Assembly: GCA_902562285.1 (NCBI GenBank)
Contig: CACESU010000016.1
Span: forward strand, 1 to 37,911
Direction of reading: 5' to 3'
Length of the DNA: 37,911 nt
Origin: an uncultured Alphaproteobacteria bacterium
GTDB taxonomy: Bacteria; Pseudomonadota; Alphaproteobacteria; Rhodobacterales; Rhodobacteraceae
Shown here in pieces: positions 5,963 to 33,624 of this stretch. Each line of letters begins with the position of its first letter. Position 1 is the first letter of the stretch. The notes below the pieces were generated by a model. The model did not search any database and was not told the origin of the DNA. It saw only the letters and a list, made by a program, of their open reading frames with translations. The position numbers were made by a program, and so were the translations under genes.

Positions 5963-6802
5963 TTACTTTAAATCCCAAAGATCAAAGGCATTAGACCAAA
6001 AAAAGTTTTTCTTTTCTTCATAAGACCAGTCTTGAGTCATCAGATAAGTGGCAGCAACCCAAGTTTCTAGACCACCACCAAGATTACATACTGGACTATC
6101 ACTACCCCAAATAATTCTTTTAAATCCAAAAGAATTTACCACATGTTCAAAATAAGGTTTTATATCATCTAAAGTCCATATCTTATTATCACCATAAGCA
6201 ATAATACCTGAAATCTTGCAAAATAAATTATCACGCTGAGCTAATTTATTAATACTTCTTTTCCAGTCATTAAAATCACCTTCTTTTATATTAGGAACTC
6301 CACAGTGATCTAGAATAAATGTGACTTTTGGACAAAAATCAATTAGTTCCATTATTTCTGGGTGTTGATGTGGAAAAGCACATAAATCAAAAGTAAACAT
6401 TGTATCAGATAATAACTTGATATTATTTTTAAATTGATCACTTCCTACAGTATTATCTGGTGCAACATGTAATACCCTACGAAAACCCTTAATTAATTGT
6501 TGTGCGTCTGCATATTGAATCATATCTTGGAAATCATTTTTTTCTGGTCTACAGGAAGATATAACTCCTTTTATTATAGTATCATTATTTTCAATCAAAT
6601 TATGTATCATCTTCGTTTCTTCTTTAATTTGATTTTCTCCAACGTCTACTTCCATATGCAAACATGCACTTATTCCTAAACGACTAGCTTTAATGTGATA
6701 GTCTTCATAACGACTTGGTTTATTGAGTAAATCTACTTTATCTAACCATGGATATCTCAAAATTTCTGGATAAATTAAATGGAGGTGGGTATCAAATAGC
6801 AT
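5963..6802 (-). CDS. Amidohydrolase-superfamily lactonase (COG3618, L-fuconolactonase-like)
   Basis: This predicted cytoplasmic metal hydrolase of the amidohydrolase_2 type most resembles the COG3618 group, which includes L-fucono- and L-rhamnono-lactonases. Metal-site residues visible in the 279-residue protein are His6 and His8 (DTHLHL), His166 (LDHCG) and Asp235 (WGSDSPV). It lies 84 bases downstream of the SMP-30-type lactonase gene on the same strand, so two unrelated lactonase folds are probably co-transcribed. With the aldo/keto reductase at 9819-10871 this would allow aldose to lactone to aldonate. An alternative is a 4-sulfomuconolactone-type or other cyclic-ester hydrolase. Confidence 0.8.
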   Translation of the reverse strand: MLFDTHLHLIYPEILRYPWLDKVDLLNKPSRYEDYHIKASRLGISACLHMEVDVGENQIKEETKMIHNLIENNDTIIKGVISSCRPEKNDFQDMIQYADAQQLIKGFRRVLHVAPDNTVGSDQFKNNIKLLSDTMFTFDLCAFPHQHPEIMELIDFCPKVTFILDHCGVPNIKEGDFNDWKRSINKLAQRDNLFCKISGIIAYGDNKIWTLDDIKPYFEHVVNSFGFKRIIWGSDSPVCNLGGGLETWVAATYLMTQDWSYEEKKNFFWSNAFDLWDLK

Positions 6803-7828: not shown

Positions 7829-7945
7829 CCTATGTTTATATTTTCAATTATTAAACTTAGGATACAGTAAACCAAATATATATTCTAAAAAAGTTATATT
7901 TTGAAAAAAAATATGCTAATGGTTATATTAAATAATCTTATTGTC

Positions 7946-8932
7946 TTGAAGGTGAACATTCTGGATAAATTTGCAGCTAGACTTAATTCATTTAAAATTG
8001 GCTATCGAGATTATTGGCCTGGAAAAAATGATATAAACACCATTGATTTACTTACTAGGGCTTCGAAAGCAGGCGTTAACGCTGCTGACTTAAATTTCCC
8101 TGACCATTTTGAAAATATTAAGGTACAAGAATTAAAAGAAACGCTAAAGCAATTAAATATCCATTTAAATGGTTTAGCTATGCGATATTATTCTGAAGAA
8201 AAATTTAAATTAGGTGCCTTTACTAATCCAGAAAAGAAAATAAGGGAAAAAGCAATAGAAGAAACTAAAAAAGGTATTGATGTTTTATCAGAACTTAATG
8301 GTGATTTATTAACTTTATGGATGGGGCAAGATGGTTTTGACTATTCTTTCCAAGCTGATTATCGTCAGTTATGGGATTGGACCATAGATGCACTAAGAGA
8401 AATAACTGAATATAATCCTAAAATAAAAATTGCTTTAGAATATAAGCCTAATGAACCACGTTCATTTTCTTTAATTCCTGATGTATCTACAACTCTAATG
8501 GCAATAAAAGAGGTAGGCAACAAAAATATGGGGGTTGTATTAGATTTTGCACATGTATTGTATGCAGACGAAATGCCTGCTTATTCTGCTAACTTAATAG
8601 GTCGATATTCAAAAATTTTAGGGGTACATCTCAATGATGGATATGGAAAATGGGATAATGGATTAATGGTAGGTTCTGTACACCCGATACAAATTATTGA
8701 ATTATTAGTAGAACTTAAGAAACTAAATTATAAGAGAGCCATTTATTTTGATACTTTTCCTGATCATTCTGGCTTAGATCCCATAAAAGAAACTTCAACT
8801 AATATTAAAACCTTTAAAAAATTAAACAGAATTGCTGATAAATTAATTAGTAATTCTGATTTAAACAATGCTATTTCTCATCAAAATGCCTCTCAAACTT
8901 TTAATATAATCCAAGAATATCTTTTTAAATGA
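7946..8932 (+). CDS. Xylose-isomerase-like TIM-barrel sugar isomerase/epimerase
   Basis: This predicted cytoplasmic TIM-barrel enzyme of the AP_endonuc_2 family interconverts aldose/ketose or epimeric sugars. Metal-site segments expected for the fold are present: ALEYKP (Glu), VLDFAH (Asp, His), GVHLND (His) and YFDTFP (Asp). I place the start at TTG 7946, giving MKVNILDKFAARL, because the frame upstream to 7901 encodes an atypical hydrophobic leader; GTG 7952 and ATG 7913 are alternatives. Its TGA overlaps the ATG of the next kinase gene by four bases (ATGA), so isomerase and kinase are translationally coupled, as in ketose pathways. Substrate unknown. Confidence 0.8.
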   Translation: MKVNILDKFAARLNSFKIGYRDYWPGKNDINTIDLLTRASKAGVNAADLNFPDHFENIKVQELKETLKQLNIHLNGLAMRYYSEEKFKLGAFTNPEKKIREKAIEETKKGIDVLSELNGDLLTLWMGQDGFDYSFQADYRQLWDWTIDALREITEYNPKIKIALEYKPNEPRSFSLIPDVSTTLMAIKEVGNKNMGVVLDFAHVLYADEMPAYSANLIGRYSKILGVHLNDGYGKWDNGLMVGSVHPIQIIELLVELKKLNYKRAIYFDTFPDHSGLDPIKETSTNIKTFKKLNRIADKLISNSDLNNAISHQNASQTFNIIQEYLFK

Positions 8933-9804
8933 AAAAAATATGTATTACAGGATCTTTGCACTGGGACATTGTAGTAGAAACAAATAATATTCCAAAAAAA
9001 GATGAGACTGTTAAAGGTTCAAAAGTTAATTACCTATTTGGAGGTAAAGGGGGTAATCAAGCTTTATCGGCAAATCGATATGGATCTAATACTTACTTTA
9101 TTGGGAGAATTGGAAAGGACAATTTTGGGGGAAAAATTTTTAATATATTGAAAAAAAGCACAGTAAATATAAAACAATTACAAGTAGGCCCTGAAAAAAC
9201 TGGGATGAGTGTTGCTATTGTAGATAAAAAAGGAAATTACAATGCAACTATAGTTTCAGGTGCAAACCTAAATATAGATCATAAAGAAATTGTCATAAAA
9301 AAAGATACCGGAATTTTACTATTACAAAACGAAATCCCTGAAAAAATAAATTTAATAGCAGCGAAAAAAGCTAAAGAAAAAAATTGTGAAGTATGGATAA
9401 ATGCTGCACCAGCGAGAAAAATAAACCCAAAACTGTTAGAACTTACTGATATTATCATTATGAATAAAGTTGAAGCAGAGTTTTATGAAAAATCTCTACC
9501 TAAAAGCAAATTAAACAAAATAACTAAAATAATAACTTTAGGATCTAAAGGGTTAAAGGCTGAGTTTTCAGATGGAATTCATAAAAAAATTCGAGCGTTT
9601 AAAGTAAAAGTAGTATCAACACATGGTGCTGGAGATGCTTTCATAGGAGCCATGGCCTCATATAGGTTAAAAGGCAATAATATTATTTCTTGCTTACATT
9701 ATGGTCAAGCCGCAGCAGCTTTACATATTTCAAGTAAAATTAGACACAGAGATACAATCACAGAAAAGGATGTCCTTGATTTAATTATCAAAAATAAAAG
9801 GTAA
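8929..9804 (+). CDS. PfkB-family carbohydrate kinase (ribokinase-like)
   Basis: This 291-residue ribokinase-fold kinase is predicted to phosphorylate the sugar made by the overlapping TIM-barrel isomerase. The N-terminal PfkB signature GGKGGNQALSANRYG is at residues 38-52. The catalytic THGAGDAFIGA block is at 231-241, with Asp236 as the base. Lysine content is high, as is common in AT-rich genomes. It starts inside the stop codon of the upstream gene (ATGA overlap) and ends convergent with the aldo/keto reductase gene. It differs clearly from the ribokinase at 18335 and the fructokinase-like protein at 23084, so it probably has its own substrate. Confidence 0.9.
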   Translation: MKKICITGSLHWDIVVETNNIPKKDETVKGSKVNYLFGGKGGNQALSANRYGSNTYFIGRIGKDNFGGKIFNILKKSTVNIKQLQVGPEKTGMSVAIVDKKGNYNATIVSGANLNIDHKEIVIKKDTGILLLQNEIPEKINLIAAKKAKEKNCEVWINAAPARKINPKLLELTDIIIMNKVEAEFYEKSLPKSKLNKITKIITLGSKGLKAEFSDGIHKKIRAFKVKVVSTHGAGDAFIGAMASYRLKGNNIISCLHYGQAAAALHISSKIRHRDTITEKDVLDLIIKNKR

Positions 9805-9818: not shown

Positions 9819-10871
9819 TTATTCTATTTGAGCTTCTGGATCCATTAACTTTTTGGACTTCAAATCAAACCAAAGTTCTTTTGGAATATTGTACTGCATA
9901 CACTCATAATTATTATCCATTTCATCTTTACTTTGTCCCCCCGGTATTACAGAAAGGTGTGTACAATGAAGTAGTGGAAATTGGAGCGCAGCTGCTTTTA
10001 GAGGAATTTCATATTCTCGGCAAACTAATTCAATTTTATTAACTTTTTCTATTATTTCTTTTGGAGCAATATCATAATTATAATACGCTCCCTGAATACC
10101 TCCAGTAGCAAGAATACCAGAGTTATATGGTCCACCGGTAATGATTCCAATTCCTCTTTTTTCACAAAGTGGTAAAAAAGATTTTAATGCCTTTTGTTCT
10201 AAAAGAGTATATCTACCTGCTAATAAAAATAAATCAAAGTCTCCTCTTTCAGCCAAATACTGACAAACTTCCCATTCATTTATACCACCACCAATTGCAG
10301 ATATTACATTTTGATCTCTTAAGGATAGCATAGCTTCATACCCTCTTTTATCAAAAAATTCTGAAATTCTTTCATCAGATGCAGCCTTACTACCATGAGT
10401 AAATATACATAAATCATGAACATAAAGGATATCAATTTTACTTACTCCTAACCTTTCAAAGGAAAACTCAAAAGAACGCATAATTCCATCGTAACTATAA
10501 TCGTATTGCTCTTTACGGAGAGGAACATCAAACCATTTACCAATCCCGGTTTGTTCTTCAGCTTTACAAGGTTTCATTAATCTACCCACTTTAGAAGATA
10601 AAATATAATCATTTTCATTTTTTGACCTTAAGAATTTGTTCAATCTAGTTTCACTTAAGCCTAAACCGTACAATGGTGCTGTATCATAATATCTAACCCC
10701 TAAATCCCATGCTCTGTTCAACGTAGCATTAGCTTCTTCATCTAAAATACTTTTATATAAATTACCAAGTGGGGCAGATCCAAAACCAAGCTCAGTAAAA
10801 TTTAACTCACCTTTTTTATGACGATCCCATTTTCTATTTTTAAGCATATTTAAAACCATAAAATAATTCAC
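9819..10871 (-). CDS. Aldo/keto reductase, L-fucose / D-threo-aldose 1-dehydrogenase type
   Basis: This NAD(P)-dependent cytoplasmic oxidoreductase is predicted to oxidise an aldose at C1 to its lactone. Reading from the first ATG, the AKR catalytic tetrad is Asp63, Tyr68 (YYDTAPLYG), Lys94 (SSKVGR) and His152 (LYVHD). The opening FTELGFGSAPLGNLY is typical of the D-threo-aldose/L-fucose dehydrogenase subgroup. No SD is visible; the true start may be the third in-frame ATG (10847), since family members begin close to that point. Two lactonase genes at 5963-7828 and FucU-like mutarotases at 17882 and 27648 would fit an oxidative L-fucose-like pathway. The dehydratase and aldolase for that route are not in the window. 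Confidence 0.85.
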   Translation of the reverse strand: MNYFMVLNMLKNRKWDRHKKGELNFTELGFGSAPLGNLYKSILDEEANATLNRAWDLGVRYYDTAPLYGLGLSETRLNKFLRSKNENDYILSSKVGRLMKPCKAEEQTGIGKWFDVPLRKEQYDYSYDGIMRSFEFSFERLGVSKIDILYVHDLCIFTHGSKAASDERISEFFDKRGYEAMLSLRDQNVISAIGGGINEWEVCQYLAERGDFDLFLLAGRYTLLEQKALKSFLPLCEKRGIGIITGGPYNSGILATGGIQGAYYNYDIAPKEIIEKVNKIELVCREYEIPLKAAALQFPLLHCTHLSVIPGGQSKDEMDNNYECMQYNIPKELWFDLKSKKLMDPEAQIE

Positions 10872-17881: not shown

Positions 17882-18331
17882 ATGTTAAAAGGGATAAATA
17901 GTCTTTTGAATGCTGATGTTCTTTATACGCTAAGAGCAATGGGACATGGTGATGATTTAATTATTGCTGATACCAATTTCCCATCTGATAGTATTGCAAG
18001 AGAAACTGTGTTGGGTGATCTTTTGAGAATAGACGCACCTGCTGCTGAAGTTGTGAAAGCTGTTTTATCTGTTTACCCTTTAGATACTTTTGTTGATGAT
18101 GCTGCTGGCAGAATGGAAGTAGTTGGAGAGCCTAATTCAATTCTTCCAGTTATGAGTGAGGTACAGTCAGAAGTAAGTAGAGCAGGTGGACCAAATCCAA
18201 TGATATCAATTGAACGTTATGCATTTTATGAAAGAGCTAAAAAAGCATACGCTGTTATACAAACTGGTGAGCGTCGTTTTTATGGATGCTTTGCTTTTCG
18301 AAAAGGAGTAATTGGTCCTGAGGAAAATTAA
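17882..18331 (+). CDS. fucU: RbsD/FucU-family sugar mutarotase (copy 1)
   Basis: This 149-residue decameric-type mutarotase interconverts anomers of L-fucose, ribose or a similar pyranose before phosphorylation or oxidation. Family features are LRAMGHGDDLIIAD (His22 and Asp24), a central PLDTFVDD block, and ERYAFYERAKKAYAVIQTGE plus RFYGCFAFRKG near the C-terminus, closer to FucU than to RbsD. A good SD (ggaagga) lies nine bases upstream. It follows the ABC ATPase and precedes the ribokinase by 3 bases. A second, clearly different copy sits at 27648 in the same position relative to another ATPase. Sugar specificity is inferred, not shown. Confidence 0.9.
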   Translation: MLKGINSLLNADVLYTLRAMGHGDDLIIADTNFPSDSIARETVLGDLLRIDAPAAEVVKAVLSVYPLDTFVDDAAGRMEVVGEPNSILPVMSEVQSEVSRAGGPNPMISIERYAFYERAKKAYAVIQTGERRFYGCFAFRKGVIGPEEN

Positions 18332-19291: not shown

Positions 19292-20347
19292 ATGATCAAT
19301 CTTAATCAAAAATGGAGAAAACCCAAAAAGCAAAGTCCGATTGTCATTTTTGGAGCTGGATCTATTGTGAATGATGCGCATTTACCAGCCTATAAACAAG
19401 CAGGTTTTAAAGTTCAGGGTATTTATGATCCAGATATTAAAAAAGCACAAAAATTAGCAAGTAAATTTAATGTCAGCATTTTCAATACTGCAGAAGAAGC
19501 GTCTAACCAGCAAAATGTAATATTTGATTTAGCTACTCCACCAAAGGATCATGCAAGCATTCTAGAAATATTACCAGAAAATGCTGGTGTTTTAATTCAA
19601 AAACCTATGGGTAGTAATCTTCATGAAGCCACTAAAATATTAGAAATTTGTAATGCTAGATCACTAAGGGCTGCATTAAATTTTCAACTTAGATTTGCTC
19701 CGATGATGATAGCTTTAAAAGATGCCATCAGCTCCGGTTTATTAGGTAAAATTGTAGATTTTGATGCTTGGCTAGCGTTAGATACTCCCTGGTCATTATG
19801 GAAGTTTTTAGAAAATTTACCAAGAGTTGAAATCCTTTTGCACTCAATTCACTATTTCGATTTTATAAGATCAATACTAGGTGACCCCAATGGTGTAAAA
19901 GCAAAAACACTTGGTTTCCCTGGGGAAAAAACTTCAAATACTAGAACTACAGCTATATTAGATTATGGAAGTGATATAAGATGTGCTCTAACCATAAATC
20001 ATAATCATAATTTTGGTAGAAAATTTCAAGCTTGTGAATTCCGAATTTGTGGGACCAAAGGAGCAGCTTATGTTCAACTTGGGGTAAATCTTAATTATCC
20101 AAAAGGAGAACCTGATATATTAGAAATAAACTTAGGAAAAAAATGGGTAAATATTCCTTTAAGAGGATCTTGGTTTATTGAAAGTTTTGGATACAGAATG
20201 TCTCAATTACAGCGATATATAAATGGAGAAGAAAGTGAACTCATTTCATCAGTAAAGGATTCTTGGAATACCATGGCATTAGTTGAAGCAGCATATAAGA
20301 ACAGTGAAGATCCAGGAACATTAATTCCAAAATATATTGATAGATAA
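19292..20347 (+). CDS. Gfo/Idh/MocA-family oxidoreductase
   Basis: This 351-residue predicted NAD(P)-dependent sugar or polyol dehydrogenase has an N-terminal Rossmann fold with VIFGAGSIVNDAHLPAYK (about residues 17-34). A catalytic-lysine motif is seen as IQKPMG instead of the common EKP. Helix segment LLHSIHYFDFIRS carries the expected active-site His, and the rest forms the C-terminal alpha/beta domain. The Glu-to-Gln change in the EKP motif is unusual but Lys is kept. It is last in the plus-strand unit ATPase-FucU-ribokinase-oxidoreductase and ends convergent with the lipoyl protein gene. Substrate is probably the imported sugar or a derivative. Confidence 0.85.
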   Translation: MINLNQKWRKPKKQSPIVIFGAGSIVNDAHLPAYKQAGFKVQGIYDPDIKKAQKLASKFNVSIFNTAEEASNQQNVIFDLATPPKDHASILEILPENAGVLIQKPMGSNLHEATKILEICNARSLRAALNFQLRFAPMMIALKDAISSGLLGKIVDFDAWLALDTPWSLWKFLENLPRVEILLHSIHYFDFIRSILGDPNGVKAKTLGFPGEKTSNTRTTAILDYGSDIRCALTINHNHNFGRKFQACEFRICGTKGAAYVQLGVNLNYPKGEPDILEINLGKKWVNIPLRGSWFIESFGYRMSQLQRYINGEESELISSVKDSWNTMALVEAAYKNSEDPGTLIPKYIDR

Positions 20348-20366
20348 TTTTTTTAATAAAAAATTA
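20345..20366. terminator. Candidate bidirectional AT-only hairpin
   Basis: A perfect 9-bp inverted repeat (taatttttt/aaaaaatta) with a 4-base loop spans the 16-base convergent gap between the Gfo/Idh gene and the lipoyl-protein gene and overlaps both stop codons. T runs on both strands suit bidirectional termination, although there is no G-C pair. Confidence 0.4.
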
Positions 20367-20594
20367 CTCTATTCGACCAACAACATCTCCTACCTGAACT
20401 AAATCTCCATCACTAAAATTGATTTGAGAAATTTTCCCACTGACCGGAGCTTCAATTTCTAACGCAGTTTTAGTAGTCGATATTAAGAGTACAACATCAC
20501 CCTCTTCTACTTCTTCACCAGCACCCACTAGCCACTCTGTTATTTCAGCCTCTGATATTTCGTTACCTAAATTTGGTATTATTATATCTGTCAT
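20364..20594 (-). CDS. Free-standing lipoyl/biotinyl carrier domain protein
   Basis: This 76-residue protein is a complete single lipoyl domain and nothing more: IIIPNLGNEISEAEITEW opens the fold and VLLISTTKTALEIEAPVSG contains the swinging-arm lysine, Lys42, in STTKTA (the E2 family norm is ETDKA). It begins 18 bases after the fused E1 stop, so it is the last gene of that minus-strand operon. In normal 2-oxoacid dehydrogenases this domain is the N-terminus of E2. Here the peripheral-binding and acyltransferase domains are absent, and no E2 core or E3 is encoded in the window. Biotin rather than lipoate attachment is less likely given the E1 neighbour. Confidence 0.88.
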   Translation of the reverse strand: MTDIIIPNLGNEISEAEITEWLVGAGEEVEEGDVVLLISTTKTALEIEAPVSGKISQINFSDGDLVQVGDVVGRIE

Positions 20595-20612
20595 TTGATT
20601 TATCCTTTTTGG

Positions 20613-23075
20613 TTATAATCCCTTTTTGGCCAATTCTAAAAAATTCCAATCTTTTCGGAGACCTTTTTTGTTCACTCTTTTTTCTGGAAAAAAATCTCTA
20701 AAAACTGAATCTAAAATATCATCTGTCTGTGGTGAGTATGTTTTTTCCATGTCGGCGCCAGGGGCTATCCAATTAGGTGCACCAATTACTATAGCGGGTG
20801 CCTTAAGATTATTAAAAGCAAACCTTGATATATTTGTAGCAATAGTATTTGCAAAACTTCCTCTTTCAACTGCTTCAGAAACAATAAGTAAGCGTCCAGT
20901 CAAATTTACAGAACTTATCAACATATCATAATCAAATGGAACAAGTGATCTTGCATCAATAATTTCAGCATCAATTTTGTGGTTTATTAACTCTTCACTT
21001 GCATCCAAAACTGGATATAACGATGCCCCTATTGTTAAAATAGTTATATCTCTACCTTTTTTTCTTTTAACTGCTTTACCTATAGGTATAGTATAATACT
21101 CTTCTGGAACACCTTTATCATTAAAAATCTCAACTTTTTCGTATAAACGTTGGCTTTCAAAAAAAATAGTTGGATCATTAGATTTTAATGAGCTTGCTAG
21201 TAAGCCTTTTGCATCATATGGAGTTGCTGGATATACAATTGAAAGTCCTGGAATATGTGTAAGTAATGACGACCAATCCTGTGAGTGTTGAGCTCCATAC
21301 TTAGATCCAATAGAAGCTCTTAAAACAATAGGTAACTTTAATTCTCCCGCAGACATTGCTTGCCATTTTGCTAATTGGTTAAATATTTCATCTCCAGCTC
21401 GGCCAATAAAATCTGAATACATAAGTTCAATAATAGCTCTACCACCAGATATAGCGTAACCAATTGCGGTGGAAACTATAGCTGCTTCTGAAATGGGTGC
21501 ATTAAATAACCTATTCATTGGAATAATATCAGCAAATCCCCTGTATACACCAAATGCTCCACCCCAATCACGACATTCTTCTCCATAAGCAATAAGTGAT
21601 TTGTCATTAGACAAATGATAAATGATGGCTTCAGCCAGGCTATCTCTAAGGGTAATTGCTCTCATTCCAGATAATAAAGAACCATCAATAGTTTTTCCAT
21701 ATCGAGACTTTTTTTTCATATTTTTTATCTGATTAACTTGATTAATATCCATTAACAAATCGTTTGCAGTTTTAGAAATTCTGTTAACTTGTTTATTAAA
21801 AGTAAAATCTCCAATAATTGTAGGTTTTTTTGTTATATCAATACTTGGAGTCAATTCTCTATCTACAACTTTACTTGTTAAAATCTCTATTTGATTTTGT
21901 ACTTTTTCAATTATGTTATCTAAATTCTTTTTGTCTATAATATCAGCTTCAAGTAACTTTTGAGAATAGAGCTCAATAGGATCAAAAGATTTCCAATCTT
22001 TGATCTCTTCTCTAGATCTATAAGCATTTGTATCAGTTGTTGAATGTCCAGAAAATCGATAGCATTCAATATCTAATAATGCAGGACCAGTTCCTTCTAA
22101 CAATATATTTCTTTTTCTGATAACTGCATCAGCAACTGATAAAGGGTCAGAACCATTGACAGTTTCAGCATGCAACTGCTCAGGATTAACTCCACTAGCT
22201 ATCCTTGAAAGGCGGTCCCAAGACATTGTTTCTCCCAATGTTTGACCCCCCATAGCATAAAAATTATTCATAAAACAAAATAACATTGGTGGATTATTAT
22301 TAAATGGTTTGGGCCATAGGTTTTTGTATTGTCCCATGGCAGCAAAATTCATCGCTTCCCATACTAATCCACAGCCAGTACTTCCATCGCCTAAATTTGC
22401 AACACAAATAGATTTATTTTGTTTTAAATGTGCATGTAAAGCAGCACCCACAGCAATACCTGAAGATCCCCCAACAATTGCATTATTTGGAAAGGCACCA
22501 AAAGGTGTAAAAAATGCATGCATTGACCCACCCATACCTTTATTAAAACCAAGTTCACGCATAAAAATTTCTGCTAATACTCCAGTTAATAAAAACATTT
22601 CTGCATCATTAAATTCTTTATTATTAAAATTTTTATGGATATATGAAATTAATTTACCATCATGATGTGTATCCATTATTGAGTTTAATTTATTCCTGCT
22701 CAAATTATTAATAGCTGAAAGTCCTTTAGCTATCATTTCACCATGGCTCCTATGCGAACCAAAAATTTTATCCTCAGTTTTCAAAGCAAATGCAGATCCA
22801 ACAGCTGCAGCCTCTTGACCAATAGAAAGATGAGCTGGCCCGTTATAAATATATTCGATATTTTTATAAGAACCCTTTGTTTTGAATGAGTTTAGCATGG
22901 TTTCAAACTCACGAACTATATACATATGCCGCAATAACTCTATTAAATTTTCTTTACCATATATCTTTAATTCTTCCTGAATTGATTTCTGATATTGATG
23001 AATAGGAATTCCTGAACTTTTAAGTACACTTTTGCTGAAAGTTTTTATTGGATCTATTGGTATATTTTTTGGCAT
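20613..23075 (-). CDS. Fused 2-oxoacid dehydrogenase E1 (alpha-beta fusion, ThDP-dependent)
   Basis: This 820-residue protein carries E1-alpha and E1-beta on one chain, as in some branched-chain or acetoin-type dehydrogenases. Alpha part: GSHRSHGEMIAKG (about 107-118), ThDP site GDG at 229-231 with NN at 270-271, and YRFSGHSTTD near 339-348. Beta part from about residue 460: YGEECRDWGGAFGVYRG, PISEAAIVSTAIGYA, QLAKW and SKYGAQHSQDW. About 45 extra residues (roughly 122-168) interrupt the alpha part before GFNKGMGGSMHAF. It decarboxylates a 2-oxoacid and transfers the acyl group to lipoate, plausibly on the adjacent lipoyl protein. It is 8 bases after a PfkB kinase gene in a sugar-importer operon, so a sugar-derived 2-oxoacid is a reasonable guess. 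Confidence 0.9.
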   Translation of the reverse strand: MPKNIPIDPIKTFSKSVLKSSGIPIHQYQKSIQEELKIYGKENLIELLRHMYIVREFETMLNSFKTKGSYKNIEYIYNGPAHLSIGQEAAAVGSAFALKTEDKIFGSHRSHGEMIAKGLSAINNLSRNKLNSIMDTHHDGKLISYIHKNFNNKEFNDAEMFLLTGVLAEIFMRELGFNKGMGGSMHAFFTPFGAFPNNAIVGGSSGIAVGAALHAHLKQNKSICVANLGDGSTGCGLVWEAMNFAAMGQYKNLWPKPFNNNPPMLFCFMNNFYAMGGQTLGETMSWDRLSRIASGVNPEQLHAETVNGSDPLSVADAVIRKRNILLEGTGPALLDIECYRFSGHSTTDTNAYRSREEIKDWKSFDPIELYSQKLLEADIIDKKNLDNIIEKVQNQIEILTSKVVDRELTPSIDITKKPTIIGDFTFNKQVNRISKTANDLLMDINQVNQIKNMKKKSRYGKTIDGSLLSGMRAITLRDSLAEAIIYHLSNDKSLIAYGEECRDWGGAFGVYRGFADIIPMNRLFNAPISEAAIVSTAIGYAISGGRAIIELMYSDFIGRAGDEIFNQLAKWQAMSAGELKLPIVLRASIGSKYGAQHSQDWSSLLTHIPGLSIVYPATPYDAKGLLASSLKSNDPTIFFESQRLYEKVEIFNDKGVPEEYYTIPIGKAVKRKKGRDITILTIGASLYPVLDASEELINHKIDAEIIDARSLVPFDYDMLISSVNLTGRLLIVSEAVERGSFANTIATNISRFAFNNLKAPAIVIGAPNWIAPGADMEKTYSPQTDDILDSVFRDFFPEKRVNKKGLRKDWNFLELAKKGL

Positions 23076-23083
23076 TTATTTAT

Positions 23084-24040
23084 TTAATTTTTATTCTTTT
23101 TAAAAGTTTCAATATCTACTTTTGAAGGCGGATTACAACCTATTTTTTTACAATTTAATGCTGCAGCAATGGAGGCTTTATTCATCATTAATGATAGATC
23201 TGTTTTTTTTAAATTTTCTATCAAATTAATATCAAAAATTTTATTATCTATAAACCAAGTCAATATACTTGCCATGTAAGTGTCTCCTGCACCAACTGTA
23301 TCTTTCAAATCAGAAATCTTTACCGAGGGCATATTTATTTTAAAGTGAGAAGTTTTTCCAATAGAACCTTTTTCCCCAAATGTTAGAATAAGTAGTTTGG
23401 CATTAGTTTTTGATTGAAGAATTTCAAAGGAATGATCAATCGAATTGTTTGGATAAATCCAATTTAAATCTTCATCACTTAGCTTTAAGATATCCACATC
23501 CAAAAACATTCTTTCTAATCTTTTAATATATGATTCACGGTCATTTATAAGTATTGGCCTCACATTTGGATCTAAACTAGTAATAAAACCTTTTTGTTTG
23601 CATTTCTTAAAAAATATTTCCCAAATTTCAGCATCTTTTCCTTCGACAAGGCCTAGGGAACCAACATGGAAAATTTTAGTAGTCATTGGTATTATATCCA
23701 ATAAATTTTCTAAATTTACTTTTCTTTCAGCTGTTTCATTTCTATGAAAACTATAGGACGGAATGCCCTCACTTATAGATACTACAGCTAAAGAAGTGGG
23801 GTTTGAAATACTTTTTGACAAAATTTTAACACCATTTTCTTTTAGCCTGGACGAAAGTAATACTCCCAGTGTATCTTTAGACAGTGGTGTTAAATATGAT
23901 ACATTTCCACCCTGCTTACTTGCAGCTATTGCGACGTTATATGGTGATCCGCCAGGATTTGCTAAATAAATTGGTAGTCCTTCAGGGTTAAAACTTGAAG
24001 AAACTAAATCAATAAGATTCTCTCCCCCAATTGCTATCAT
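23084..24040 (-). CDS. PfkB-family kinase, fructokinase-like
   Basis: This 318-residue ribokinase-fold kinase is closest in style to fructokinases and 2-keto-3-deoxygluconate kinases. It begins IAIGGENLIDLV, has NPGGSPYNVAIAASKQGG in the sugar-binding region and the catalytic TVGAGDTYMASILTW block (about residues 251-265), with Asp as the base. It lies 32 bases after the permease and 8 bases before the fused E1 gene, so it belongs to the minus-strand FrcBC-like operon. This parallels rhizobial frcBCAK, where a kinase accompanies the fructose importer. Fructose or a related ketose is inferred. Confidence 0.88.
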   Translation of the reverse strand: MIAIGGENLIDLVSSSFNPEGLPIYLANPGGSPYNVAIAASKQGGNVSYLTPLSKDTLGVLLSSRLKENGVKILSKSISNPTSLAVVSISEGIPSYSFHRNETAERKVNLENLLDIIPMTTKIFHVGSLGLVEGKDAEIWEIFFKKCKQKGFITSLDPNVRPILINDRESYIKRLERMFLDVDILKLSDEDLNWIYPNNSIDHSFEILQSKTNAKLLILTFGEKGSIGKTSHFKINMPSVKISDLKDTVGAGDTYMASILTWFIDNKIFDINLIENLKKTDLSLMMNKASIAAALNCKKIGCNPPSKVDIETFKKNKN

Positions 24041-24072: not shown

Positions 24073-25605
24073 TTAAACAGAATTATCAAGCTTGCGAGCT
24101 CTTTCAAAAATTATATCAATAAATAAACTTATTATGAGTATAATTGCTCCAAAAATTAAAAAAGGGGAAGTCACAGAATAACCAATTTTAATTAATGGTA
24201 AAATAATGAAAATAAAAAAGGTGGCAATTATTACTGTTAAAAGTTTATTTGGAGTATATAAAGGTATTAATGAAATAATAAATAATGAAAGACATAGTAC
24301 TGAAATCCAAGTATTTGAAGAAATAATTTGTTGAAAGTAATCTATCTCTTTCGGTCCTAATAACCTAGCCGTTTGGCCATTAGCCAATTTTTCTCCAGCC
24401 TCTTGAATGCTTTTTGATGAATTATGCTCTAAAATAGAAATTTGTGCTTTTAAAAAAAGACTTGCAGGAGTCATAAGGGTTAAGAAAGCCATGAATGAAC
24501 TCACTGAGACCAATAACCTCCTTACATTCTTTGGATTTTTTGACTGACGAACTAAATCTATACCTACTGCTAAAAGAATTATTACACCCGTAACAACCAT
24601 TTGCCAAAAAGTATCTAATTGTGCCAATGTTAATCCATTGTTGATAAGTTTTAAAAGTATAACACCCATAAACGTGCCCCATAAGGAACCTCTTCCTCCA
24701 AATAATGAAGTACCACCAATAACAACAGCTGCAATTGCGTCTAATTCCCACATTTGCCCATAATCAGATTTTGCATAAGGAGCTCTTCCAAGAAATAATA
24801 ACGCACCAAATGCCGCTGAAAGTGAGCAAAGCATATAAGTCATCATTGTATAAAGGGAAGTATTAATACCTGACTGTCTTGCACCCACAGCATTTGATCC
24901 TATAGCGTATATATATCGTCCATATCTAGTATTAGTAATAATTATGCTTAGTGTAAGAAAAAATAGAATAAAAATCAGCATCGACATTTGAAAAGTTCGA
25001 AAGAAATTTAACCAATTACTATCAATAAAACTACCAAATGTTTCCCAATAACCTTCAAGATTACCCTCTTTATATTCATTTCTTAAGTTTGCAAATGGAT
25101 TGAATCTTCCAAATAAATCAAAATTTATTGGAAGTTTTGGAGTAGCTTGCGCACCAGTACTAAGATGACCTGTTCCACGCCATATAGACAATCCAGCAAG
25201 AGTTGCAATAAAAGCAGGCATTCCAAAATAAGCCACTAATGTCCCTTGAAATGCACCTACTAATAATCCTAAAGAAAGGCCAGTAAGAATTGCCATCCAA
25301 GGTGGAAATCCCCAAAAACTACAAACGTAACCTGTTAGAGCAGCAGTCATACCCATTACAGAACCTACCGATAAGTCAATACCTGAAGTTATAATTACAA
25401 GCGTCATCCCCCCAGCTACTATTCCTATGGCTGCAGAATTATTTAAGATGGTCATAAGATTTGTTGGATGAAAAAAAGGACGTCCTGAAGTTGAAAATTC
25501 TATAGCTAAAGCAAGAATTAAAATTGCCACAAAAGCACCAGACCATTCCGCTTTAAAAAACCTGACTAAAGCCCTTATTATCGTATCTGTAAATTTTTCT
25601 GGCAT
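24073..25605 (-). CDS. Sugar ABC permease (RbsC/FrcC/XylH type) with C-terminal extension
   Basis: This inner-membrane permease of the BPD_transp_2 family is predicted to import a monosaccharide with the binding protein at 25724 and ATPase at 26842. The core has about eight to ten helices. Family blocks are TLVIITSGIDLSVGSVMG, GMPAFIATLAGLSIWRG, YAIGSNAVGARQSGI, and AIAAVVIGGTSLFGGRGS with GTFMGV. At 510 residues it is far longer than RbsC (~320). There is an insertion of about 55 residues after GTGHLSTGAQ, and after residue ~365 an added C-terminal region of about 140 residues with a soluble loop and roughly four more hydrophobic helices. It is separated from the binding-protein gene by a stem-loop. 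Confidence 0.9.
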   Translation of the reverse strand: MPEKFTDTIIRALVRFFKAEWSGAFVAILILALAIEFSTSGRPFFHPTNLMTILNNSAAIGIVAGGMTLVIITSGIDLSVGSVMGMTAALTGYVCSFWGFPPWMAILTGLSLGLLVGAFQGTLVAYFGMPAFIATLAGLSIWRGTGHLSTGAQATPKLPINFDLFGRFNPFANLRNEYKEGNLEGYWETFGSFIDSNWLNFFRTFQMSMLIFILFFLTLSIIITNTRYGRYIYAIGSNAVGARQSGINTSLYTMMTYMLCSLSAAFGALLFLGRAPYAKSDYGQMWELDAIAAVVIGGTSLFGGRGSLWGTFMGVILLKLINNGLTLAQLDTFWQMVVTGVIILLAVGIDLVRQSKNPKNVRRLLVSVSSFMAFLTLMTPASLFLKAQISILEHNSSKSIQEAGEKLANGQTARLLGPKEIDYFQQIISSNTWISVLCLSLFIISLIPLYTPNKLLTVIIATFFIFIILPLIKIGYSVTSPFLIFGAIILIISLFIDIIFERARKLDNSV

Positions 25606-25723: not shown

Positions 25724-26662
25724 TTAATTGATACCTACCATTTGTTTATAAACACCAGAAGTAGAAGGTGTTACAAGAAAAAATCCTGTATCTATTCTTG
25801 AGGATACTGTTTCACCTCTTGCAGCTGCGGCAGCAGCCTTGATTCCTTGATAGCCCATTTGATATAACATTTGAGCAGTATCTGCATGAACCCATCCTTC
25901 ATCCATTGCAGCTATAGCATCACTTGCACCATCGAAACCAACTAGCTTAACATCACCTGCACCATATCCAAGGTTTTCTAATGCAGCTTTTGCACCCATG
26001 GTACCGCCGTCCCATGCATTCACAACCATTTTGACGTCGCTATTTGAATTTAATACAGCCTCAACTCCCTCTTGAGCTTGTTGACTGTTCCATTCTGTAG
26101 GAACCTCTAAAATTTTTGAACCAGGCCTAGCAGCTGAAAAAGCTTCCATAAAACCATTACGGCGCTCTTGACCAGTAGATTGTGCTTGATTCCCTGTAAC
26201 ATAAATTACAGTATCACCATCGTTAACTAAGGTAGCAGCAACTGCACCTTGAACTTTTGCAACAGCATAATTGTCGGTAGCTACAAAAGAGGTAACTTCA
26301 GCGCCTGAAACACCAGTATCAATAGCAATAATTGGAATACCAGATGACATTGCATCAGTAACAGCAGGTGCTACACCAGCACTATCAACTGGAGCAATCC
26401 CAATTGCTTTTGCTCCTTGAGCCACTAGATTTTCGAAAACCTCCAATTGACTAGATAAATCACCTTGAAAAGCTGGTCCAACTGATACTAGTTTCACGCC
26501 TTCTTCAGCTGCAGCATCTTCTGCCCCCTGATTGATCATCATCCACCCTGCATTGGTTGCTGATTTTGTAATGTAGCCAATAACATCTTGTGCATTGATA
26601 GCAGCATTCGAAGTTATGGCAAAAAATGCAACAAGTGCAAATTTTGGTAATAAATTTTTCAT
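25724..26662 (-). CDS. Monosaccharide ABC substrate-binding protein (RbsB/FrcB type)
   Basis: This 312-residue periplasmic protein of Peripla_BP_4 type has a Sec signal peptide (residues 1 to about 24, ending NAAINAQ). Typical segments are GYITKSATNAGWMMINQGAED, QLEVFENLVAQGAKAIGIAPVDSAG, GIPIIAIDTG, VIYVTGNQAQSTGQERRNGF, VVNAWDGGTMGAKAALEN and LVGFDGASDAI. It leads the minus-strand operon permease-kinase-E1-lipoyl protein. A strong SD (aaggag, minus strand, 26677-26672) precedes its ATG, in keeping with high expression. The ATPase is divergent at 26842. The ligand is most likely a single hexose or pentose; fructose is suggested by the FrcBCAK-like gene set. Confidence 0.9.
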   Translation of the reverse strand: MKNLLPKFALVAFFAITSNAAINAQDVIGYITKSATNAGWMMINQGAEDAAAEEGVKLVSVGPAFQGDLSSQLEVFENLVAQGAKAIGIAPVDSAGVAPAVTDAMSSGIPIIAIDTGVSGAEVTSFVATDNYAVAKVQGAVAATLVNDGDTVIYVTGNQAQSTGQERRNGFMEAFSAARPGSKILEVPTEWNSQQAQEGVEAVLNSNSDVKMVVNAWDGGTMGAKAALENLGYGAGDVKLVGFDGASDAIAAMDEGWVHADTAQMLYQMGYQGIKAAAAAARGETVSSRIDTGFFLVTPSTSGVYKQMVGIN

Positions 26663-26841: not shown

Positions 26842-27627
26842 ATGAATGATTTGAATAAAGAAGTTATACTTAAAACAGTTGGTTTAACGAAACATTATGG
26901 AGGAGTAAGAGCTCTTGAAGACGCAAATTTTTCTATTTCTTCTCATGAACATATTGCCATAGTAGGTGATAATGGTGCTGGGAAATCAACTTTTGTAAGA
27001 AGTATTACAGGAGTTGAAAGACCAACTTTTGGAAAAATCTTTTTTAATGGTAAAGAAGTTAATTTTAGATCACCTACTGATGCAAGAGAAAGTGGTATTG
27101 AGACAGTTTATCAAAATCTTGCACTCGCTGATGATCTTGATGTTACTTCAAATATTTTTCTTGGTAGGGAAATTGAATATTTCAAATTAGGACCATTATC
27201 ATGGTTGAATAAATCAGCTATGAAAAAAAAATCATCTGAACTTCTAGCTCAAACAGGAATAAAAATAGGTAACTTAAGCCAAGCTGTAGCAAGTATGTCT
27301 GGAGGGCAAAGGCAATGCGTTGCCATTAGTAGAGCAGCTGGTTGGGGATCAAAATTAATAGTTATGGATGAACCGACAGCTGCCTTAGGAATACAAGAGA
27401 CAAAGAAAGTGGAAGAAATAATTAAAAATCTTAAAGAACGTAATATACCAGTCATTATAATTTCTCATAATCTACGCCAAGTATTTGATTTAGTTGATAA
27501 AATAGCTGTATTCAGGCAAGGTAGAATAATCGATGTTGTAAAAACCAGTGAAGTCACAGGCAACGATGTTGTTGCTTTGATTACAGGTTTGGATAAAAAA
27601 AACAGGGCAGTTGGAGAATATATTTAA
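26842..27627 (+). CDS. Monosaccharide ABC ATP-binding protein, single-domain (FrcA type)
   Basis: This 261-residue ATPase has a single nucleotide-binding domain, unlike the duplicated RbsA/XylG (~500), matching FrcA of fructose importers. Walker A GDNGAGKST is at residues 42-50, the signature MSGGQRQCV at 152-160 (Cys where Arg is common), Walker B LIVMDEP at 172-178 and H-loop His209. It is divergent from its predicted binding protein and permease, and its stop lies 20 bases before the second FucU-like mutarotase, with which it should be co-transcribed. No clear SD precedes the ATG. Confidence 0.92.
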   Translation: MNDLNKEVILKTVGLTKHYGGVRALEDANFSISSHEHIAIVGDNGAGKSTFVRSITGVERPTFGKIFFNGKEVNFRSPTDARESGIETVYQNLALADDLDVTSNIFLGREIEYFKLGPLSWLNKSAMKKKSSELLAQTGIKIGNLSQAVASMSGGQRQCVAISRAAGWGSKLIVMDEPTAALGIQETKKVEEIIKNLKERNIPVIIISHNLRQVFDLVDKIAVFRQGRIIDVVKTSEVTGNDVVALITGLDKKNRAVGEYI

Positions 27628-27647: not shown

Positions 27648-28070
27648 ATGTTAAAAAAAATAAACCCAATTTTAGGACCAGAAGTATTATTTGTACTTCG
27701 TGAAATGGGCCATGGTGATCAGATAGCACTAGTAGATGGAAACTATCCGGCATCAGCACACGCAAATAAATTAATTAGAGCAGATGGCATTGAACTTATT
27801 CCTTTGTTAGATTCTATACTAGATATACTCCCTATTGATAACAAGACTGATGCAATTGTAAGAGCTATAAATGTTACCAAAAGTGATGGAATTGATCCAA
27901 TTCACAACGATATTGAAAAAACCTGCAGTTATTATAACTTTAAAGCAGTCCAGCTGGACGCTGAAAGTTTTTATAAAAGGGTTAAAAATGCATTTGCAGT
28001 TATAGCAACCACCGAGCGTTGTTTATACGCTAATGTAATTCTAACCAAAGGCATTATACTTCCAAATTAA
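27648..28070 (+). CDS. fucU: RbsD/FucU-family sugar mutarotase (copy 2)
   Basis: This 140-residue mutarotase is predicted to interconvert anomers of the sugar imported by the FrcBCA-like system. Family features are LREMGHGDQIALVDGNYP (His22, Asp24), LPIDNKTDAI, and SFYKRVKNAFAVIATTE followed by YANVILTKGI. It has an SD (agggag) and follows the ATPase by 20 bases. It is a diverged relative of the protein at 17882: the ends align well, but the middle section does not, so they probably prefer different sugars. FucU-like rather than RbsD-like by the GHGD-VDGNYP block and C-terminus. Confidence 0.88.
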   Translation: MLKKINPILGPEVLFVLREMGHGDQIALVDGNYPASAHANKLIRADGIELIPLLDSILDILPIDNKTDAIVRAINVTKSDGIDPIHNDIEKTCSYYNFKAVQLDAESFYKRVKNAFAVIATTERCLYANVILTKGIILPN

Positions 28071-32718: not shown

Positions 32719-33624
32719 TTAATTCTTGGTAAATTTTATTAATCGACTAGCTAAAAAGATACCTTCATCCTCCTGAAAAAAATGCCCAGCATTTTTTGTA
32801 ATAAAATGATCCTGGCCAGAAGCACCTGGTATCTTCTGAATAAAAACTTTTTCTAAACCTTTCATAATAGGGTCCTTATCAGAAAAACAAGTTAAAATTG
32901 GTTTTCTCAGTTTTATTAATTTTTCCCATGCTTTTTTTTGATCATGATGAGCTGGGTCCTCAATAGAATCTGGAACTAATAAAGGAAATTGACGTGCTCC
33001 AGATTTGTATTCTTCATCAGGAAAAGGAGCATCGTATGCATTTATTTCATCGCTAGAAAGACCTTTAAATGTACCTCTATGAATTACATTTCCAATTTTA
33101 AAAGTTTCTGAATTTTGACTATAGTTTCTCCACTTATAAAATTCGGGACCCAAATTCTCGACTCCAGTTGGGAAAACTGTATTACCTATCATTACTTTAT
33201 TAAAAATTTTTGGTGTCTCTACTAGTATTCTTAAACCAATCAATCCTCCCCAATCCTGCCCGAATAATGCTGAATTCTTAATTTTCAATTGATTAAGAAA
33301 TGAAGTTAGCCAACTTACATGAGATTTATAGGTATAATTATTTCTATTCTTTGGTTTATCACTTTTCCCAAAACCTATTAGATCAGGAGCTATCACTCTA
33401 AAACCATTATTTGAAAGAATAGGTATCATATGCCTATAAATATAGGACCACGATGGTTCACCATGCAAAAGAATGATAGCTGGATCATTTTTTTTTCCTT
33501 CATCAACGTAATGAATACGTAGAATGCCTATTTCCATATCGCGAATAGTAATATAGTTAGGCTTAAAATTATAGTCTTTAAGAGATTTAAACCTAAATTC
33601 CTGAGTTCTTAAAAATAAGCTCAT
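32719..33624 (-). CDS. Haloalkane dehalogenase-like alpha/beta hydrolase
   Basis: This 301-residue alpha/beta hydrolase has strong likeness to haloalkane dehalogenases of the HLD-I (DhlA) group. HGEPSWSYIYRHM spans residues 54-66. Nucleophile Asp124 with halide-binding Trp125 are in FGQDWGG, a candidate acid Asp is in CFSDKDP (249-251), and catalytic His281 is in NAGHFFQEDEG. An Asp nucleophile (not Ser) argues for dehalogenase or epoxide hydrolase chemistry; HGEP plus DW favours the dehalogenase. It is cytoplasmic and sits in a minus-strand run between the GYD protein and the unknown 106-residue protein. Natural substrates of marine members are mostly unknown. Confidence 0.85.
   Translation of the reverse strand: MSLFLRTQEFRFKSLKDYNFKPNYITIRDMEIGILRIHYVDEGKKNDPAIILLHGEPSWSYIYRHMIPILSNNGFRVIAPDLIGFGKSDKPKNRNNYTYKSHVSWLTSFLNQLKIKNSALFGQDWGGLIGLRILVETPKIFNKVMIGNTVFPTGVENLGPEFYKWRNYSQNSETFKIGNVIHRGTFKGLSSDEINAYDAPFPDEEYKSGARQFPLLVPDSIEDPAHHDQKKAWEKLIKLRKPILTCFSDKDPIMKGLEKVFIQKIPGASGQDHFITKNAGHFFQEDEGIFLASRLIKFTKN

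Follow-up and report, generated by a model that had tools for sequence, protein, structure and literature searches.

A fused E1 enzyme and a free lipoyl protein beside sugar genes: a candidate core-less relative of acetoin dehydrogenase in marine Rhodobacteraceae

The 37,911-nucleotide contig CACESU010000016.1 (hereafter the window; contig C16) from an uncultured Rhodobacteraceae bacterium (assembly GCA_902562285.1; 1.73 Mb, 68% complete) encodes on its minus strand a fused E1 alpha-beta, thiamine diphosphate (ThDP)-dependent dehydrogenase of 820 amino acids (20613–23075). It is followed, after a spacing of 18 bases (20595–20612), by an intact, free-standing 76-amino-acid lipoyl carrier protein with an STTKTA motif (20364–20594). 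A sequence-only reading of the window had described this layout, and its coordinates were borne out by the open reading frames (ORFs) and Pfam matches. We consider it probable, though narrowly so, that the pair is a core-less relative of acetoin dehydrogenase whose carrier, in the window's genus, unloads on a housekeeping E2 or by hydrolysis and is reoxidised by a shared E3. The lipoylation, the substrate class, the acyl acceptor and the use of the E3 are predicted parts of this proposal.

E2 cores (PF00198) were matched twice in the genome, on contigs C11 and C1. The E3 model TIGR01350 was matched 14 times, once over its cut-off, on C11 directly beside the E2 core. All of these matches lay off C16, in agreement with the earlier claim that the window encodes neither an E2 core nor an E3. 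The whole-genome search proposed with that claim thus yielded two E2 cores and one clear E3, all of them elsewhere. Judged by their neighbours, the two cores appear to be of the AceF and SucB types. A second E3-like match on C12 was partial and below the cut-off (165 bits). Six other biotin/lipoyl domains were found in the genome: two belong to the E2 proteins of C11 and C1, a third to a PdhB-type E1 subunit and a fourth to a biotin carrier, and the remaining two lie on C71 and C35. The lipoylation enzymes LipB and LipA each scored over the cut-off in six of 12 genomes of the genus, in both cases including the 97%-complete genome G483, and a lipA gene lies near the unit in Agrobacterium. From its motif, we take the PF03099 match in the window's genome to be a biotin ligase and not LipB. 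In other genomes of the genus, separate E1 alpha and beta genes were also seen. In G483 (L113, contig C5), such a pair is followed by a 325-amino-acid lipoyl-domain protein without a Pfam E2 core, possibly a second core-less E1 system in the genus. In G488 (L111, contig C19), a pair lies between glyoxalase-like and SDR-like genes, and the 3.8 kb viewed there contain no E2.

The single E1 chain carried matches to Pfam E1_dh (155 bits), Transket_pyr (105 bits) and Transketolase_C (94.5 bits). Its structure, modelled as a single chain, had a predicted local distance difference test score (pLDDT) of 86.2 and a predicted template modelling score of 0.89, and the beta half superposed on solved E1 beta subunits with a template modelling score of 0.93 on the target. 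Residues H108, E530 and H597 were invariant in 35 aligned rows. Pairwise ratios of non-synonymous to synonymous substitution rates (dN/dS) were 0.08–0.14 among six sequences of the genus (L024 left out) for the pairs with computable dS, several of which were near or at synonymous saturation.

Relatives of the E1 were collected by scanning a genome collection with a five-row E1 alignment and two conserved peptides. The scan matched 478 stretches, 419 of which encode a relative, and the family counts rest on the best 80 of these 419. By record titles, the family occurs in Alpha-, Beta- and Gammaproteobacteria. A lone lipoyl gene adjoined the fused E1 in 68 of the 80 relatives, and an alpha/beta hydrolase was encoded within 1.5 kb in 57 of these 68 lipoyl-bearing loci. 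NF011457, the model of AcoC, which is the E2 of acetoin dehydrogenase, was matched in its C-terminal half by all 57 adjacent hydrolases (E 1e-10 or better), more than matched any other family. Three hydrolases viewed singly covered residues 127–370 of the 372 in this model with 144–202 bits, below its cut-off of 307 bits. The hydrolase residue S86 was invariant in 57 rows and D199 and H220 were conserved in at least 90%; all three were invariant in a 16-row set. The order E1–lipoyl–hydrolase was also present on annotated plasmids of Rhizobiaceae and Pleomorphomonas, with the E1 of L016 annotated as two genes. The simplest reading of these sequences is that the family unit resembles acetoin dehydrogenase, with a fused E1 and an AcoC split in two. 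Since the lipoyl protein matches other E2 models nearly equally, the hydrolase and the gene order are what argue for a split AcoC. The E2 of the family would accordingly be split and not absent, because an AcoC-type hydrolase follows in 57 of the 68 lipoyl-bearing relatives. One contig with the same gene order and an E1 97% identical to that of the window (L022) is titled Flavobacteriales, and is probably misnamed or misbinned.

The 12 relatives without a lipoyl gene comprised L050, the contig-end locus L087 and ten deep loci (L088, L093–L101) from Planctomycetota, Chloroflexota and Bacillota, two of which (L093 and L100) end less than 1 kb after the E1. Beside the E1, four of the ten deep loci (L094, L095, L096 and L098) encode a classical E2 that has both the core and the E3-binding domain, and L094 and L099 encode an E3. 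Neither was seen at L088 and L101, and L097 was unreadable. The same alternation occurs in acetoin clusters: that of Caballeronia encodes the AcoC lipoyl domain and alpha/beta hydrolase in one chain with no classical core, and that of Acinetobacter has a classical E2 instead of AcoC. This swap, in the acetoin clusters as well as beside this E1 family, suggests that AcoC-type proteins and classical E2s are functionally equivalent. The sequence-only reading would have given way to a matching E2 core beside an orthologous cluster in close relatives; what was found goes part of the way, namely an AcoC-type protein in the sister clade, with classical cores seen only in distant phyla.

The lipoyl protein matched PF00364 (Biotin_lipoyl) with 65.5 bits over residues 2–74 of 75 (initial methionine omitted). 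Its best NCBIfam match was to residues 5–77 of 372 in AcoC (58.7 bits), closely followed by the E2 models of pyruvate dehydrogenase (PDH; 55.4 bits) and 2-oxoglutarate dehydrogenase (54.6 bits). The structure model (mean pLDDT 94.4) showed a complete lipoyl fold, in which K42, the predicted lipoylation site (codon 20469–20471, minus strand), lies in the turn between strands 33–38 and 43–47 (numbered without the methionine). Among solved structures, the model was closest to E2 lipoyl domains; biotin carriers, which share the fold, also ranked among the best matches. The motif of biotin carriers is A/V-M-K-M, whereas that of the window's protein is STTKTA. All 68 lipoyl loci have the motif lysine, which did not vary across 53 aligned rows. 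For eight computable pairs of the genus, dN/dS was 0.05–0.12; it was 0.29 for the closest pair, which has few changes. The sequence-only reading had named a truncated or frameshifted E2 as the finding that would overturn it. This explanation was excluded because the lone lipoyl gene is conserved across loci: the proteins of six loci of the genus end at the same residue, and the gene stands alone in 68 of the 80 loci. By their titles, several loci of the genus carry isolate names resembling those of single-cell genomes. The genome's other lone lipoyl-like domain (L009) was rejected as a lipoyl carrier, its motif EAMKM being that of a biotin carrier.

Eleven of the 68 lipoyl-bearing loci had no adjacent hydrolase: the six of the window's genus, that of Sulfitobacter algicola (L037), L045, L077 and the contig-end loci L048 and L086. 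We searched for the hydrolase with a 16-row profile in 12 genomes of the genus, nine of which contained the E1 or a piece of it and three of which showed no E1 ortholog, and in the genomes of nine loci. No ortholog was found in the 12 genus genomes (best match 62 bits; 50.8 bits in the 97%-complete G483). The window's own genome gave four alpha/beta hydrolase matches, the best with 60.8 bits over model positions 16–112 of 251. As positive controls, the L036 genome, whose hydrolase is outside the profile, gave 312 bits and three profile members gave 305–330 bits. From the completeness values, the chance of missing an existing ortholog by random loss in all nine E1-bearing genus genomes is about 1e-6. 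The S. algicola genome showed only weak, partial matches (best 76.6 bits). The genomes of L045 and L077, as well as that of L050, gave 170–205-bit matches elsewhere, in frames of 370–573 amino acids; those of about 370–388 amino acids are, by their length, candidates for full AcoC. Because of these matches, L045 and L077 were not counted as lacking an AcoC-type protein. The only alpha/beta hydrolase noticed in the window (32719–33624) scores as a haloalkane dehalogenase (406 bits; 37.5 bits for AcoC).

In an E1 tree of 84 rows (a quick tree with 24 open forks; L087, L039 and L056 were dropped as truncated or duplicate), the genus formed one clade (Shimodaira–Hasegawa-like approximate likelihood ratio test, 100), sister to a hydrolase-bearing SAR116/Rhodobiaceae clade. 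S. algicola was placed apart from it. Labelling the tree gave four changes to the hydrolase-less form, including L045 and L077, of which two cases are firm. The absence of the hydrolase is best read as a derived loss, separate in the genus and in S. algicola. The E1 and the lipoyl protein remain under purifying selection in the genus despite the absent hydrolase.

The unit lies in a sugar-gene neighbourhood. Upstream of the E1, separated by 8 bases, is a PfkB sugar kinase (23084–24040; PF00294, 112.5 bits), followed by a ribose/monosaccharide-type ATP-binding cassette (ABC) permease (24073–25605; PF02653, 115.5 bits) and a ribose/allose-type sugar-binding protein (25724–26662; PF13407, 189 bits; NCBIfam allose- and ribose-binding protein models below cut-off). 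ORF strands and Pfam matches place all three in the same minus-strand run as the pair, as the sequence-only reading had it, and its proposed survey showed that fused E1 and free lipoyl carrier recur beside sugar genes. Within 5 kb, a PfkB or FGGY kinase was encoded at 46 of the 68 loci and a SorC-type regulator at 34. Where the sequence extended 5 kb to each side (43 loci), a kinase was present in 27, and a kinase, a SorC-type regulator or both in 40. Some of the counted loci also went into building the kinase and regulator profiles; neighbour clusters from ORF blast were often antisense, and only families checked by profile are reported. The closest NCBIfam model of the adjoining kinase was fructokinase, below cut-off, in the window, L013, L028, L037 and L078, and xylulokinase, above cut-off, in L014. 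Two regulators scored as DeoR/LsrR, below cut-off. In the sister loci L024 and L025, the ribose-type importer is decayed or gone while the kinase, E1 and lipoyl genes are intact, and we therefore regard these three genes, and not the importer, as the core unit. Within 3–9 kb downstream of the unit in S. algicola lie genes resembling those of an acid-sugar dehydratase, a 2,4-didehydro-3-deoxy-L-rhamnonate hydrolase and a fuconolactonase, all below cut-off.

The nearest known system by gene content is the acetoin dehydrogenase system (AcoA, AcoB, AcoC and an E3), which cleaves acetoin, an alpha-hydroxyketone, yielding acetaldehyde and acetyl-CoA. It shares with the family an E1-type ThDP enzyme and, in AcoC, a lipoyl domain and a hydrolase without a classical core; the lipoyl proteins of the family match one end of the AcoC model and its hydrolases the other. 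However, the acetoin system has separate E1 alpha and beta genes, whereas the E1 of the window is one 820-amino-acid chain. AcoC is likewise one chain, while its counterparts are two genes in the relatives, with the hydrolase not found in the genus. Neither the window's lipoyl protein nor the three hydrolases, each covering part of the model, reached the NF011457 cut-off, and a sugar kinase and SorC-type regulator as neighbours further set the unit apart. With the pyruvate, 2-oxoglutarate and branched-chain complexes, the unit shares the E1 fold and its conserved residues, of the alpha/beta ThDP type, and the lipoyl fold. These complexes oxidatively decarboxylate 2-oxo acids and have an E2 core, an E3-binding domain and tethered lipoyl domains, whereas the unit in the window encodes neither core nor E3-binding domain and its lipoyl protein is untethered. 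The glycine cleavage H protein is a known case of a free lipoyl carrier that works with a separate decarboxylating enzyme. In contrast to that system, the best NCBIfam matches of the window's lipoyl protein are to E2 and not to H-protein models, and its partner is ThDP-dependent. LbpA of the sHdr pathway is also a single lipoyl-domain protein outside the classical complexes; a passage in PMC6067878 describes it as GcvH-like, mostly with two conserved cysteines, and encoded beside hdr genes. The window's protein matches Biotin_lipoyl, contains no cysteine among its 76 amino acids and lies beside an E1, and no hdr gene was present among the window proteins scanned. No description of the split or the hydrolase-less form was found among the listed titles and abstract openings of open-licence papers on acetoin, AcoC, lipoyl and E1 subjects.

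In Rhizobium leguminosarum, the orthologous ten-gene cluster pRL80079–pRL80088 holds E1, lipoyl and hydrolase genes. It also encodes a ketose-epimerase-like isomerase, a fructokinase-like kinase, a sugar-type importer and a DeoR/LsrR-type regulator. The cluster differs from the window in having the hydrolase and another importer, and its E1 is 58% identical to that of the window. A pRL80083 mutant was reportedly unable to use homoserine. In print, pRL80081 appears as a hydrolase (PMC5118466) and pRL80085 as a substrate-binding protein (PMC7105596). With these two as anchors, our mapping assigns the lipoyl gene to pRL80082 and the fused E1 to pRL80083. A table in a review lists pRL80079–pRL80088 under homoserine catabolism (PMC8416774, citing Vanderlinde et al. 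2014), and a passage in PMC10228743 also refers to a homoserine cluster. The mapping likely points to the E1, carrier and hydrolase of this homoserine-linked plasmid cluster.

In the textbook view, dehydrogenases of this kind work because an E2 core serves as their scaffold. By gene content, the family has no scaffold of its own, and in the marine lineage no dedicated acyl acceptor was found either, yet its E1 and carrier are under selection. We hypothesize that the substrate of the kinase-linked E1 is a small alpha-hydroxyketone or 2-oxo compound derived from a sugar, which the enzyme would cleave with the help of ThDP, reductively acylating the diffusible lipoyl carrier. In most Pseudomonadota relatives, the separate AcoC-type hydrolase would take the acyl group, either passing it to coenzyme A (CoA) or hydrolysing it. 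No dedicated transferase was found in the window's genus, which would leave the acyl group only a shared enzyme or hydrolysis as a way out. Most likely, the carrier there passes it to a housekeeping E2 core or loses it when the thioester is hydrolysed, and the shared E3 of the genome would then reoxidise the carrier. The sequence-only reading had proposed a free carrier that hands its acyl group to a shared E2 or to something else. That idea stood insofar as the free-carrier unit recurs and no dedicated transferase was found in the genus, but not for the family at large, where 57 of 68 relatives have the AcoC-type hydrolase. The 2-oxoacid substrate of that reading is likewise only a candidate, as the nearest known system acts on an alpha-hydroxyketone. 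A narrower version is a tentative possibility: a substrate-specific E1 would load the diffusible lipoyl protein, which would deliver the acyl groups in trans, scaffold-free, to the E2 core of the cell's pyruvate or 2-oxoglutarate complex. If true, a dehydrogenase would need no scaffold of its own and could plug into housekeeping complexes; whether a free lipoyl carrier can serve a shared E2 becomes a testable question. A threonine after the motif lysine (K-T-[A/S]) was found in seven of the 68 lipoyl loci, namely the six of the genus and S. algicola, and in none of the other 61. The motif may mark a switch of partner in lineages where no AcoC-type protein was found; the correlation is weak since it involves two lineages only.

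Several observations weigh against the proposal of a core-less acetoin dehydrogenase relative. In classical complexes, lipoyl domains work less well as partners when free than when tethered. The window's own 68%-complete metagenome-assembled genome gave no LipB match and no LipA match over the cut-off. When the lipoyl proteins of the window and of 52 of the 68 loci were scanned (rows with a long N-terminal read-through were omitted, and a few others by choice), the AcoC and SucB models were matched alike. By blast, the alpha half of the E1 scored higher with PdhA of its own genome (133 bits) than with AcoA (119 and 116 bits), while the beta half scored higher with one AcoB (214 bits) than with the genome's PdhB (159 bits), which leaves the class, Aco or PDH, unsettled. 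In the E1 tree, a branch of 2.24 separates the E1 from the two AcoAB rows. Lastly, what the literature connects with the Rhizobium cluster is an amino acid, homoserine. This connection and the anchored gene tags would fit an E1 that, in Rhizobium and perhaps also in the window, is a genuine 2-oxoacid dehydrogenase, acting for instance on 4-hydroxy-2-oxobutanoate from homoserine. We consider this rather doubtful, given the sugar-type genes of the Rhizobium cluster and the lack of any homoserine enzyme among the window proteins scanned.

Other explanations concern the hydrolase. A different alpha/beta hydrolase encoded elsewhere might replace the AcoC-type protein in trans in the genus, and the four generic matches in the window's genome provide candidates. 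This appears unlikely, as matches in the genus reached at most 62 bits and were mostly partial, compared with 305–330 bits for adjacent hydrolases and 170–205 bits for AcoC-type proteins encoded elsewhere; no genus hydrolase was shown to travel with the unit, although no gene-by-gene search was made. We give similarly little credence to the hydrolase being a lipoyl thioesterase and not a CoA acyltransferase, in which case the pathway would yield a free acid and the gene would be dispensable in a genus with other thioesterases. The invariance of the catalytic serine in 57 rows is in line with such an activity, and the human alpha/beta serine hydrolase ABHD11 is reported to remove glutaryl from lipoyl without hydrolysing glutaryl-CoA (PMC12643935). 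An enzyme that cleaves acyl-lipoyl but not the CoA thioester keeps the thioesterase reading alive, and the family would place acyl-lipoyl hydrolases such as ABHD11 in a bacterial context. On the other hand, energy is wasted when a free acid is released, the family that the hydrolases match bears the name of an acetyltransferase (a name, not a test), and the alternation of AcoC-type proteins and classical E2s beside this E1 family and in acetoin clusters suggests equal function. Finally, the absent hydrolase, the broken or missing importer in L024 and L025 and a Gfo/Idh gene in pieces in the sister loci L025 and L027 might be taken as signs of a decaying module that no longer works. We regard decay as highly improbable, since six sequences of the genus retain intact E1 and lipoyl genes with low dN/dS up to synonymous saturation, and the kinase stays adjacent.

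At the position of the relatives' hydrolase, the window encodes a Gfo/Idh/MocA oxidoreductase (19292–20347, plus strand), convergent with the lipoyl gene across a gap of 16 bases. It is probably a boundary and not a member of the E1–lipoyl unit. On the importer side, an RbsA-type ATPase (26842–27627) of 261 amino acids has a single ABC domain and matches only the N-terminal half of two-domain sugar ATPases. Two RbsD/FucU mutarotase-like genes (17882–18331 and 27648–28070) are distributed one to each of two adjacent sugar-import clusters. At the contig start, a DhaK subunit scored above its cut-off (284–1276), with no partner subunit noticed among the listed ORFs. The window further encodes fuconolactonase-like (5963–6802), isomerase-like (7901–8932) and PfkB-kinase-like (8929–9804) proteins and an aldo/keto reductase (9819–10871), and genes of these four types also lie near the unit in S. 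algicola.

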